The notes under the pieces are model-generated. The model saw only the letters and a program-made list of their open reading frames with translations, did no database searches and was not told where the DNA came from. 64,000 bases of DNA from Brevundimonas vesicularis (GTDB lineage: Bacteria > Pseudomonadota > Alphaproteobacteria > Caulobacterales > Caulobacteraceae): positions 558,001-622,000 of the forward strand of contig NZ_JACHLJ010000002.1 of NCBI RefSeq assembly GCF_014204545.1. The letters are read 5' to 3'. Positions 1,759 through 57,604 of the stretch are shown here, piece after piece. Numbering within the stretch: position 1 is the first letter of the stretch; every line of letters begins with the position of its first letter. A program made the translations under genes and the position numbers.

Positions 1759-3810
1759 TCAGCCCGCGTGCAGCTCCTGCTTCACCCGCTCCGCCAGCGT
1801 CTTGATGTCCAGCGGCTTGGGCAGGAAGGATACGCCCGTCTCGTCTTGCAACAGGTCCGAGAAGTCGCTCTCGGCATAGCCCGAGATGAACATGACCGGC
1901 GCGTCGCCGAGATATTTGCGCGCCTTCTTCAGCAAGGACGGGCCGTCCAGCCCCGGCATGATGACGTCGGAGATCATCATGTCGATCTGGCCGGCGTGTT
2001 CCTCGGCTAGCAGCAGGGCCTCCTCGCCGTCGGCGGCCTCTATGACCTCATAGCCCCGCTGGCGCAGCAGCCGGGCGGCGATGCCGCGCACGGCGTCCTC
2101 GTCCTCGACGAACAGGATGCGGCCGGCGCCCGACAGGTCGCGCGGCGCCTTGGCCTTGACCTCGACCGGCTGAACCTCGGCCAGCTCCGCCTCGCCCGCC
2201 GCCGGCAGGAAGATGCGGAAGGCGGCGCCTGCGCCTTCGATATTGCTGACGGTGATGTGGCCGCCCGCCTGCTGCACGATGCCATAGACGGTGGCCAGAC
2301 CCATGCCGGTCCCCTCGTTCACCGCCTTGGTGGTGAAGAAGGGTTCAAAGATCTTGTCCGCCAGTTCGGGCGGCACGCCGGGTCCGGTGTCCGACACCTC
2401 GATCAGGGCCACCTCATCCGTCGGCGCATCGGCCCAGCCCAGGCCCCGCGCCTCGTCGCCCGTCAGGCGGCGCGTGGCGATGGTGACGACGCCGGCGCCC
2501 GGCTCGACCACGCCGCGCATGGCGTCGCGCGCATTGACGGCCAGGTTCATCACCGCCGTCTCCAGCTGAGACTTGTCGGCCAGCACGACCGGCAGATCGC
2601 GGCCGTAGTCGGTCTCCAGCCGCACGTCCTCGCGCAGCAGCCGCCGCAGCAGGATGGCGAACTCGCCCACCAGTTCACCCAGGTCCAGCCGCTCGCGCCG
2701 CACCGTCGACTTGCGCGAGAAAGCCAGCAGCTTGCGCACCAGATCGGCCGCGCGGATGGCCGTCTGGCGGATCTCGTTCAGCCCCTCGTAGGAGGGATCG
2801 CCCACCGGGTGCCGTTCCAAAAGACCCGACAGCTGAAGCTGGATCGCCGTCAGCAGATTGTTGAAGTCGTGCGCGACGCCCCCGGCCAGTTGGCCCACGG
2901 CCTGCATCTTCTGGGCCTGGTTGAGCTGAAGCTCCATCGACTTCTGGCCCGAGACGTCGAACAGCCAGATGCGCCGCCTGTCGCCCTCGGGCGCCACATA
3001 CAGATGCAGCATCTTGTCGGGATAGGCCCGCGCGACCAGTTCGATCGGCCCCGACGATCCGCCCGCCAGCTTCAGCCGCGCCTCGGCGATGCCGCCCGGA
3101 TCGAACAGATGCCCAAAGGCCGCATCGCGCGCCGCCCCCGGTCCGGTCAGAACCGCCAGCGCCGGATTGGCCTCTTCCGCCCGGCCGGAAAACAGGTCGT
3201 CGCCGCCGATCACGGCCGAGCCGAACGGCGCCCCGGCCGCCATGGCTCGCGCCTCGCCGGTCGCCGCGGCGGCGGGCGTGTGAACGGGCGCGGCGGCGAT
3301 GGGCAGGACGGCGTCCGGCGCCGCGCGCATCAGGAACCTGCCCTCGCCCGTCTTTCCATCGCCGATCTGGCCGATGACGACCTCGACCTCGCGCTGTCCG
3401 ATCATGACGATGGCGCGGCCCGGCTCGCCTTTGCGCGCCTGGGCGAAGGCCATGTACAGCGCCTGGGCCGACTTGCCGCGCGGCAGGGCGCCGGTCGCCC
3501 CATTGGCCTCGGACCAGGCGGCGTTGAAGGCCAGGATCTGTCCTGAATCCCAGACCAGCGCCGCCGGTTCGGCCATGGCGTCCAACACCTCGATGGCCGC
3601 ATCGCTGCTCGGCTTAGCGTCCGCCGCCCGGCGGAAGCCGAAAAGACCGATCAGGGCGATCGCGCCCACGGTCAGAATCAGCACCAGTCCCGGCGCCGAG
3701 GTCGGGTTGGCGCGAAACGCCGGATAGGCCAGCGCCGCAATCGCCGCCACGACGCCGAACGCCATCACGCCGGACAACAGGTCGAACGAAGGGCGGCGGG
3801 TGGACGTCAT
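1759..3810 (-). CDS. cckA: Cell-cycle hybrid histidine kinase CckA
   Basis: The 683-residue protein has two N-terminal membrane helices (about 11-32 and 38-59), two PAS-like regions (about 70-165 and 195-290), a HisKA domain with phospho-His H314 ([11 protein letters not shown]), a HATPase domain (DTGPGVP, GTGMGLA) and a C-terminal receiver with D615 (MISDVIMPG). The layout and length match Caulobacter CckA, which feeds ChpT and through it CtrA and CpdR. It follows flhB at the end of the fliQ-fliR-flhB run on the same strand. The flhB-cckA gap of 51 bases holds a GAATC (GANTC, CcrM-type) site at 3821-3825. The very similar chpT partner is convergent nearby. Confidence 0.93.
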
Positions 3811-6027: not shown

Positions 6028-6141
6028 CCAGACGCGTCTTCGTCCAGACCTGACCACGGAAAAATCTCGCGTGCGGCCTTGAACGGCGCCGCTTCCATGC
6101 CGACTTCCCCGCCTTCGCCTTGGGGAGCGCCAGCCATTCGA

Positions 6142-6194
6142 TTTCAGACGAATTAGACGAATTAGACTCTCTTTTTCCGACTCCACCGTCTGAA
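6142..6194 (+). promoter_or_regulatory. Composite repeat element upstream of folE
   Basis: Three 9-base units follow each other (TTCAGAC-type, then two AATTAGAC-type), ending at 6167. After 20 bases containing a T-run comes GTCTGAA (6188-6194), which inverts the first unit. The same arrangement, in the same orientation to its gene, occurs upstream of ftsY (53078-53131). It ends 71 bases before the folE start. Protein-binding or promoter function is inferred from position and duplication. Confidence 0.55.
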
Positions 6195-26526: not shown

Positions 26527-26685
26527 CTCCCTCCCCGCTTCGGGGAGGGTGACCGAGCGGAGCGAGGTCGGGTGGGGGTGGCAAGGCGACGTCCCAGGGA
26601 CCTGTCTCTAATCAAACAGGTGCGGCCCTGCCGGGCCGTCCCCACCCGGTCGCTGCGCGACCACCCTCCCCCGCTGGGGAGGGAG
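26527..26685. repeat. Inverted-repeat intergenic element, CTCCCTCCCC type
   Basis: Ends are CTCCCTCCCC (26527-26536) and GGGGAGGGAG (26676-26685). Both arms fold locally as well (CCTCCCC-GCTTC-GGGGAGG), and the inner parts GTCGGGTGGGG and CCCCACCCGG also pair. It belongs to the same general family as the elements at 39609, 55578 and 57124. Confidence 0.75.
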
Positions 26686-39608: not shown

Positions 39609-39754
39609 CCTTCTCCCCTCGGGGGAGAAGGTGGCTCGCGGAGCGAGACGGATGAGGGGGCTGCCAATCGCAACCTCGCCGTTGCCGTTTCGAGGCGGAC
39701 AGATACCCCTCATCCGAGGCCTGCGGCCCCACCTTCTCCCCCAAGGGGAGAAGG
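39609..39754. repeat. Inverted-repeat element, CCTTCTCCCC type, without gene
   Basis: Ends are CCTTCTCCCC (39609-39618) and GGGGAGAAGG (39745-39754). Each arm folds locally. The outer approximately 50 bases on each side closely match the ends of the DUF559-bearing element at 57124-57590, but the interior of this copy is short and non-coding. Confidence 0.8.
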
Positions 39755-53077: not shown

Positions 53078-53131
53078 TTTCAGACGGTCGGCGACAAAAA
53101 CACCGTCTAATTCGTCTAATTGGTCTGAAAT
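53078..53131 (-). promoter_or_regulatory. Composite repeat element upstream of ftsY
   Basis: On the plus strand GTCTAATTC, GTCTAATTG and GTCTGAAAT follow directly (53105-53131); TTTCAGAC lies 19 bases to the left (53078-53085). Read on the ftsY strand this is the folE element at 6142-6194 with one changed base in the 9-base units. It lies about 63-116 bases before ftsY. Confidence 0.55.
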
Positions 53132-53275
53132 CGGGACCTCCCTGTCAGCGTGAGTTTGAAGACGAGGAGTATAGACCCGCGCAAAATCGACGACGGCGGA
53201 CGGCCGCTAGAAATCGGCAAGCCGTTGAAAGCGCGAGGTTTCGAGCCTGCGGTTAGGACGGCTGTCGTCATTTCT

Positions 53276-55577: not shown

Positions 55578-55704
55578 GTCTCCTCCCCGCTTTGCGGGGA
55601 AGTGGCTCGAAGCGTAGCGGAGAGACGGAGGGGCTCTTGGCTGTGTGGGTAGAAGCCCCCTCCACCACTTCGTGGTCCCCCTCCCCATTGCATGGGGAGG
55701 AGAC
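55578..55704. repeat. Inverted-repeat element, GTCTCCTCCCC type
   Basis: Ends are GTCTCCTCCCC (55578-55588) and GGGGAGGAGAC (55694-55704), perfectly inverted. Inner stretches GGAGGGGCT and AGCCCCCTCC also pair. It begins 4 bases after the nadE stop and ends 20 bases before the next start codon. Confidence 0.8.
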
Positions 55705-57123: not shown

Positions 57124-57590
57124 CCTTCTCCCCTTGGGGGAGAAGGTGGCCCGCAGCGCGGGTCGATGAGGGGGCTGCCGGATACAAATGTGGCAATCGC
57201 CGCCAAGAACCCGGCAGTCACGCCGTCTTCGCGCCGACATGACAGGCGCGGAAGCGATCCTATGGTCGATGCTGCGGAACCGGCAGCTGGATGGCCTGAA
57301 GTTCAGGCGGCAGGCGCCAGTCGCTGGGGCCATCGCCGATTTCGCCTGTCATGAGATCAGACTGATCATAGAGCTGGACGGCGGCGTGCACGATCTGCAC
57401 GAGGCGCGGGACGCCGTACGAGACGAGCGGCTTCGCGTCGCGGGCTATACGGTCATGCGATTCAGGAACGCCGACTTCTCGAAAAATCCGGCGGTTGTGC
57501 TGGACGCGATACGGCGACATGCGAGCATGCGGACACAGCCCCCTCATCCGACCGGCTCCGCCGGCCACCTTCTCCCCCGAGGGGAGAAGG
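57124..57590. mobile_element. Putative small mobile element with DUF559 nuclease gene
   Basis: Terminal inverted repeats CCTTCTCCCC (57124-57133) and GGGGAGAAGG (57581-57590) enclose one gene. The outer approximately 50 bases on each side match the gene-free element at 39609-39754. No target duplication is evident. Calling it mobile is an inference from the shared ends and differing interiors. Confidence 0.5.
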
Positions 57591-57604
57591 AAACCGACGA
57601 GTAA
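57188..57604 (+). CDS. DUF559 endonuclease-like protein
   Basis: The 138-residue protein has the DUF559 pattern (related to Vsr/very-short-patch and restriction-like nucleases): RRLRADMTGAEAILWSMLRNRQLDGLKFRRQ, then DFACHEIRLIIELDGGVHD with the likely metal-binding D/E residues, and GYTVMRFRNADFSKNPAVVLDAI. The last 20 or so residues (PPHPTGSAGHLLPRGEKETDE) are encoded by the flanking repeat itself. ATG 57188 fits the family start; ATG 57239 is possible. No function of this family has been firmly shown. Confidence 0.82.
   Translation: MWQSPPRTRQSRRLRADMTGAEAILWSMLRNRQLDGLKFRRQAPVAGAIADFACHEIRLIIELDGGVHDLHEARDAVRDERLRVAGYTVMRFRNADFSKNPAVVLDAIRRHASMRTQPPHPTGSAGHLLPRGEKETDE

Follow-up and report, generated by a model that had tools for sequence, protein, structure and literature searches.

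BoxC/PIT/TM repeats have been known since the 1990s. They mark unstable sites, and an intrastrand triplex of the E. coli motif has been formed in vitro (PMC4666352). The mechanism behind them was left open, the main text of that study naming no mobility gene near the motifs and containing, in a word search, no words starting with nuclease, endonuclease or ycjD (PMC4666352). On the side of the nucleases, EDxHD and GIY-YIG proteins are known homing-endonuclease families (PMC3943268), and Caulobacter VsrA, a DUF559 protein, is described as tied to DNA damage and the SOS response, which it induces when a solitary cytosine methyltransferase is missing (PMC12907096). Judged by title and abstract, and with preprints outside the search, none of the searched literature that names DUF559 concerns intergenic repeats. 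Here, we analyse a stretch of 64,000 nucleotides from Brevundimonas vesicularis (NZ_JACHLJ010000002.1, positions 558,001 to 622,000; hereafter the window), in which a DUF559 nuclease gene is enclosed by an inverted pair of hairpin repeats at 57124-57590. We conclude that this locus probably represents a nuclease-borne selfish mobile element, ∼0.4–0.7 kb in size, with gene-less derivatives.

The element belongs to a repeat family, A, in which a hairpin, a short stem and the motif GATGAGGGG are followed by the DUF559 gene and then by the same parts inverted (Table 1). The palindromic hairpin has the general form CCTTCTCCCC-nnn-GGGGAGAAGG and stands at both ends. With up to three mismatches allowed, the pattern CCTTCTCCCCnnnGGGGAGAAGG has four matches in the window, all perfect (57124-57146, 57568-57590, 39609-39631 and 39732-39754), versus none in 100 shuffles. 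The left third-strand motif is the usual GGATGAGGGG minus one base, which the triplex-unit detector scores as one mismatch. A preliminary description of the window had given the coordinates and ends of the palindromic element exactly, and had proposed that the last residues of the nuclease are repeat-encoded; the last ∼23 residues (TQPPHPTGSAGHLLPRGEKETDE) are indeed encoded by the right repeat arm and flank.

Table 1. Parts of the nuclease-bearing element and the gene-less elements of the window (window coordinates).
Feature	Position	Strand	Remark
Whole nuclease-bearing element, family A	57124..57590	+	467 bp; relatives share sequence up to the hairpins and differ beyond
Left terminal hairpin, CCTTCTCCCC-TTG-GGGGAGAAGG	57124..57146	+	
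Second stem of left unit, GGCCCGCAGCGCGGGTC	57148..57164	+	Read from sequence
Left third-strand motif, GATGAGGGGG	57165..57174	+	Mirror of hairpin purine arm
DUF559 / EDxHD-type nuclease gene	57188..57604	+	138 aa; tail encoded by right repeat arm and flank
Right third-strand motif, CCCCCTCATCC on the + strand	57539..57549	-	
Second stem of right unit	57551..57566	-	Read from sequence
Right terminal hairpin	57568..57590	-	
Gene-less element, family A	39609..39754	.	146 bp; same ends as 57124-57590
Gene-less element, family B	55578..55704	.	GTCTCCTCCCC arm, GGAGGGG motif; pair less perfect
Gene-less element, family C	26527..26685	.	CCCTCCCC hairpin arm, GGGTGGGG third strand

The empty twin that had been noticed at 39609-39754 has the same hairpin ends and no gene, and its left arm is 91% complementary over 56 nt to the right arm of 57124-57590. 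Likewise, the palindromes with other ends that had been pointed out at 26527 and 55578 follow the same plan; they are gene-less pairs and represent two additional families. The triplex-unit detector finds six units in the window, including both ends of 57124-57590 and 39609-39754; it picks up the pair at 26527 and misses the less perfect one at 55578. A profile search of the whole genome (G000) returned one further DUF559 gene, G000:C2:157929-158234, which lies 457 kb away within a repeat pair of family B. Since the two DUF559 genes sit in different repeat pairs, each nuclease goes with its own repeat family, and families A and B are each also present gene-less in this genome.

The GATGAGGGG-like motif of the main families mirrors the purine arm of the hairpin, except that one A is changed to T. 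The third strand was read near 181 DUF559 loci (doublets from overlapping sets included), each hairpin on both strands; in these 692 readings the mirror was better in 232 and the direct copy in 24. For the arm GGAGAAGG, 236 readings gave 115 perfect mirrors and four perfect direct copies, and at least one perfect mirror was present for 22 of the 24 distinct arms. The hairpin arm and the motif are covarying mirror repeats; a third strand that is a direct copy, or that forms an alternative duplex, is disfavoured by the mirror test. The units have the BoxC/PIT/TM layout of a pyrimidine arm, a complementary purine arm and a mirror third strand and, to judge from sequence, the element ends belong to that known class of triplex repeats. 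Being a polypyrimidine/polypurine hairpin with a mirror third strand, such a unit could, on single-stranded DNA, adopt an intrastrand-triplex fold.

The association between gene and repeat is general. Flanks were compared by aligning ∼300 bp upstream of the domain to the reverse complement of ∼350 bp downstream; a score of at least 20 defined a strong flanking repeat, and the other yardstick was a score above all 100 shuffles (two-base blocks in the genus, named and GIY-YIG tests; full dinucleotide shuffles in the class test). DUF559 is present in 94 of 101 genomes of the genus and in 80 of 241 genomes of the class. For the genus and the class, loci were chosen from the top of the profile ranking and hence non-randomly; the named loci were the best 80 of 581. 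Of the 71 DUF559 loci in the genus, 60 exceeded all shuffles and 57 scored at least 20, against two of 103 size-matched control genes (400 kb, five relatives); both of these are, by position and length, DUF559 orthologues of the window gene, leaving 0/101 without them. Corresponding figures in the class were 18 and 14 of 30 loci (L045 omitted for a short flank). Genomes with several copies gave 18 of 20 chosen loci with scores of at least 20 and, in one class genome (G110), seven of eight loci passed with differing repeat sequences. Among the named genomes, 77 loci were testable (L170, L185 and L190 were left out for short flanks) and 43 scored at least 20; subtraction of an artefact caused by an N run (L171) left 42 of 76, compared with none of 374 size-matched genes on the same contigs. 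Flank offsets from open reading frame ends differ slightly for the named and genus control genes. At least five loci occur in two sets, which makes the counts for genus, class and named genomes partly dependent on one another: the sets overlap at L164/L292, L231/L257 and L241/L258, repeat sequence is shared by L192/L149 and L211/L146, and L306 of the several-copy set repeats a class-test locus. The proposition that DUF559 genes carry such flanks more often than other genes is thus borne out in the genus and in the named genomes alike.

The 42 named loci span Alpha-, Beta- and Gammaproteobacteria and also occur in records labelled Bacteroidales, Chloroflexi (Anaerolineales, Viridilinea), Gastranaerophilales, Kiritimatiellae and Saganbacteria; many of these records are metagenome bins, so single taxon assignments may be wrong, and the association as a whole reaches several phyla. 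Around the 80 named genes, out to 350 bp, triplex units occur at 3.15 per kb, versus 0.071 per kb beyond 1 kb, a 44-fold difference, with units on both sides at 45 of these best 80 of 581 loci and on one side at 16. A looser detector of direct copies gave 2.64 per kb near and 0.062 per kb far; it is also enriched because many arms are nearly symmetric. At one locus from Neisseria gonorrhoeae (L246, flanks of 2501-2824 and 3007-3707), the hairpin repeat is direct, not inverted, on the two sides of DUF559, and the direct hairpin copies are followed by an array of triplex-type units spaced ∼281 bp apart.

GIY-YIG genes of the 241-genome class set had been intended as a negative control and failed as such: 15 of 27 loci exceeded the shuffles and ten scored at least 20 (L340, L348 and L350 left out), with a different class of repeat. 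Their flanking palindromes are of another kind, for example GTCATTCCCGCGAAGGCGGGAATCCAG. The triplex-type unit was found at none of the 27 GIY-YIG loci compared with 23 of the 29 DUF559 loci from that set of genomes (L149 left out), and a GTCAT-hairpin type at nine of the 27 GIY-YIG loci, at none of the 29 DUF559 class loci and at five of the 80 named DUF559 loci (best 80 of 581). These results suggest a second nuclease–repeat pairing, that of GIY-YIG with its own palindromes. Seven solitary GIY-YIG genes (L322, L328, L330, L332, L333, L342 and L345) are flanked by GTCAT-hairpin-ATCCAG and CCTTCGACAAGCTCAGG types.

DUF559 elements are units with defined edges. Nuclease elements at unlinked sites are ∼68–87% identical in DNA as far as the outer bases of the hairpins, and the BLAST match ends there. 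This holds for unlinked pairs within one genome (L301/L302 in G099; L268/L284 in G081, 1.2 kb apart), and homology likewise stops at the outer hairpin bases in L301/L311, L262/L268 and L001/L275. Among the matches listed, terminal inverted repeats bound the mobile unit in the D2, TRT and A groups; some pairs of relatives lose similarity earlier within the unit, and others are orthologues with matching flanks. The fetched loci yielded 159 inverted pairs; 91 have the size of gene-bearing elements, with a median of 481 bp, and the other 68 that of gene-less ones, with a median of 145.5 bp. Flank complementarity over 186 element readings averaged 4.38, versus a maximum of 4.24 in 200 shuffled pairings; insertion into the centre of existing palindromes is a lead only, as the excess may stem from imperfect definition of the ends. 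At L284 (∼700-1225), an element interrupts a perfect palindrome in its middle (GGCAACCCGCTT / AAGCGGGTTGCC); this palindrome may be a terminator that served as target.

Presence and absence differ between relatives, as the preliminary description had anticipated. In G000, G039 and G028, the gap of 57124-57590 is occupied by the nuclease element; G019 has a lone hairpin there, as does G079, in which it lies beside another gene, and G048 and G056 have ordinary spacer with no element. In G002, a nuclease element lies beside the same downstream gene, and the left flank is unrelated. Site 39609 carries three different families across four genomes, other families being present in G039, G028 and G009. 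At site 55578 there are pairs in G000 and G079, lone hairpins in G039 and G028 and nothing in G009 (G096 was not alignable), and the lone hairpin of G039 carries the loop of the right hairpin of G000. A lone family-C hairpin occupies site 26527 in G028. The gene glyS of G000 contains a gene-less copy in frame (L011, G000:C2:159429-159578); in 27 readable loci including G000 (three without an anchor were left out), 24 have no insertion in this linker and two others have different families. The in-frame copy adds ∼50 residues to the beta subunit of glycyl-tRNA synthetase, and the other repeat families in the same linker are those of G037 and G011. The window also contains a 38-nt inverted repeat (6139-6176 and 53096-53133; 89% complementary, 47 kb apart) that is unlike the hairpin families.

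Repeat copy number is coupled to the cognate nuclease. In the 101 genus genomes, exact matches to an 18-mer of repeat D had a median of ten in the 26 genomes with a D nuclease (best D-type match at least 61% identical) and of one in the 75 others (p 1.5e-6, or p 0.007 after removing four copies from each of the 26). For repeat F, the 11 genomes with an F nuclease (identity of at least 63%) averaged 2.6 copies and the remaining 90 genomes averaged 0.27 (p 1.8e-7, or p 0.009 after removing two from each of the 11). All copy-number sums used exact-match patterns only.

The E. coli DUF559 gene, ycjD, is flanked by sapF and fabI; a search with the sapF–ycjD region found 80% or more of the query in 3361 of 5426 genomes. 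Number 9 of the published MG1655 list of BoxC (TMECO) repeats, 1351204-1351239, lies 3' of ycjD (1351407-1351760, minus strand), and the final codons of the gene (SPSP) run into a degenerate BoxC-like hairpin. Between hrpB and mrcB, MG1655 has an inverted pair, UTAK-8 one hairpin at the same site, FDAARGOS_1293 none and JNEC-KY204 another pair; between alx and sstT, MG1655 has a pair, TUM13881 one hairpin and two other strains unrelated sequence. At these two loci only, the idea that the lone hairpins are unrelated terminators is unlikely, because each corresponds to the pair with its middle missing. In a sample of 60 records taken at even steps (H267, 231 kb, dropped), BoxC-like places had a median of 19 (14–30) in the 37 records with a copy on the ycjD side and of 8.5 (1–16) in the 22 without.

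The window protein matches DUF559 (PF04480) at 123 bits, compared with 111.7 for L002, 167 for E. coli YcjD and a cut-off of 20.6. Pfam recognizes a single domain at residues 8-110, followed by a low-confidence tail, and thus none of the extra DNA-binding modules of EDxHD proteins in the 138 residues. The profile matches comprise only DUF559, plus MTES_1575 below its own cut-off, and no Y1 transposase. The catalytic fold is of the EDxHD type, nearest to 3hrl and the homing endonuclease I-Bth0305I, and is common to Vsr and branched-DNA resolvases. The putative catalytic residues are invariant in two sets of 24 and 49 sequences and, with dN/dS of 0.02–0.29 in 46 gene pairs, the DUF559 gene is under purifying selection. 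A phage search returned three records with weak DUF559 matches.

A scheme can be proposed for how such an element might move. The repeat, folded on single-stranded or supercoiled DNA, would be recognized by its cognate nuclease, which would nick or cut at or near the folded repeat or a similar target; repair of the break could then copy the element to a new place or restore a lost one, in a manner resembling homing and with no strand joining by a transposase. Hydrolytic nucleases do not join strands on their own. A nuclease of this kind would fit the missing target duplications and suggests dependence on host repair. The gene-less pairs (mostly 85–173 bp; in E. coli, BoxC/PIT/TM) would be non-autonomous, using the cognate nuclease in trans. 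As the terminal hairpins are palindromic, they are also direct repeats, and recombination or slippage between the two would leave one hairpin, a state that two loci of E. coli show and that three sites of the window suggest in relatives. While the mobile element itself is the probable explanation, only about half of that confidence extends to a homing-type route of movement.

Several observations weigh against a nuclease-borne mobile element, a reading in which binding and cutting of the repeat by a DUF559 protein are predicted. The 159 elements show no target duplications, which had been proposed as a check, and no excess of flanking direct repeats; nor was a clean empty site found, the glyS and E. 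coli gaps showing replaced flanks. No unit lies inside 350 bp at 19 of the named loci (best 80 of 581). Nuclease and flanking-repeat sequences are correlated (rho 0.43 over 57 loci; maximum of 2000 permutations, 0.19), which is weak evidence alone because both lie in one element and linkage predicts part of it. The copy-number statistics ignore phylogeny. Exact D-type marker copies are present without any DUF559 gene in G083 (15) and G041 (ten), and G084 has five F copies and no F-type nuclease, so that repeats can survive their nuclease gene or rely on a different one. Of the D-nuclease matches, 26 in all, the one in G007 is interrupted by an in-frame stop. E. coli ycjD has no left repeat unit, and the copy there has probably decayed. 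Its coupling to BoxC probably follows phylogroup, the strains not being independent evidence: in phylogroups A, B1 and C, and in a few more, ycjD is reported to stand in place of the eef operon (PMC12817139).

The same observations could be read differently if the nuclease were a repair enzyme for hairpins or triplexes, similar to Vsr or SbcCD, that lets the cell tolerate repeats spread by other means and whose linkage to them is beneficial. The fold shared with Vsr and branched-DNA resolvases and the link of Caulobacter VsrA to DNA damage and SOS (PMC12907096) favour such a maintenance role, in which lone hairpins could be processing products. However, a repair gene need not be inside a repeat pair, nor need one genome have it in several diverged copies that go with different repeat families, and the homology of unlinked relatives reaches only up to the hairpins; we therefore regard maintenance as unlikely.

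Less probable still is that the repeats owe their movement to a separate transposase, whether RAYT, IS200/IS605-like or of some other type, with DUF559 as a captured passenger. Gene-less copies exceed nuclease genes in several genomes and persist in DUF559-free ones, and the layout is like that of REPINs, which are thought to be moved by a separate gene (PMC3116915). Yet a passenger would hardly be the same gene family partnering diverged repeat families in several phyla, be held under purifying selection or have repeat copy number track the cognate nuclease, and GIY-YIG genes go with a different repeat class. Chance or composition might be invoked, given that GC-rich palindromes are common in the intergenic gaps where DUF559 genes sit, that the window copies are intergenic and that terminators are also hairpins; against the size-matched controls (0/374, and 0/101 without the two DUF559 genes) and the 44-fold local density, this is very improbable. 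The selfish mobile element carried by its nuclease thus remains our preferred explanation. A wider proposal is more tentative and somewhat less likely than not: that transposase-free mobile elements occur across much of bacteria, in which solitary nucleases cut folded DNA and host repair moves them. If true, DUF559/EDxHD with triplex palindromes and GIY-YIG with a second class would form one transposase-free class of elements, short palindromes would have a route of spread that needs no transposase, and many interspersed palindromic repeats, including E. coli BoxC, would be homing-type parasites. A 'domain of unknown function' that occurs across several phyla would gain a role, and some 'Vsr-like repair' genes would be recast as selfish.

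Compared with known systems, the elements combine familiar features in a different way. Like miniature inverted-repeat transposable elements (MITEs) and their parent insertion sequences, they comprise units with a gene and shorter ones that lack it, the inverted ends being the same, but their sole gene is a nuclease and no target duplication was found. With REPIN/RAYT they share inverted doublets, lone-repeat remnants and a separate repeat family for each enzyme gene (PMC3116915); the differences are that the enzyme is a PD-(D/E)XK-type nuclease rather than a Y1 transposase, that the gene lies within the pair and that unlinked sites carry the unit complete with its gene. The likeness to an element with its MITE, or to RAYT and REP, drawn in the preliminary description therefore stands for layout, gene-less derivatives, lone-repeat remnants and copy-number coupling, and fails for target duplications. 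In contrast to the EDxHD homing endonuclease I-Bth0305I as described (PMC3943268), no intron or intein and no extra DNA-binding domain was seen here, and the elements have structured-repeat ends and dispersed gene-less derivatives. Unlike Vsr endonuclease, DUF559 is flanked by its own repeats at most loci tested. The closest resemblance in the repeats themselves is to BoxC/PIT/TM, which also run from pyrimidine arm, loop, purine arm and loop to a mirror third strand, form inverted pairs and show strain-variable loci with pair-to-hairpin deletions, the 'palindrome effect' (PMC4666352). In many of our families, a second stem of 15–25 nt replaces the 3-nt loop. The repeats here are, moreover, tied to DUF559 genes, and a cognate nuclease gene is a concrete candidate cause for the spread of BoxC/PIT/TM, testable in E. 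coli.
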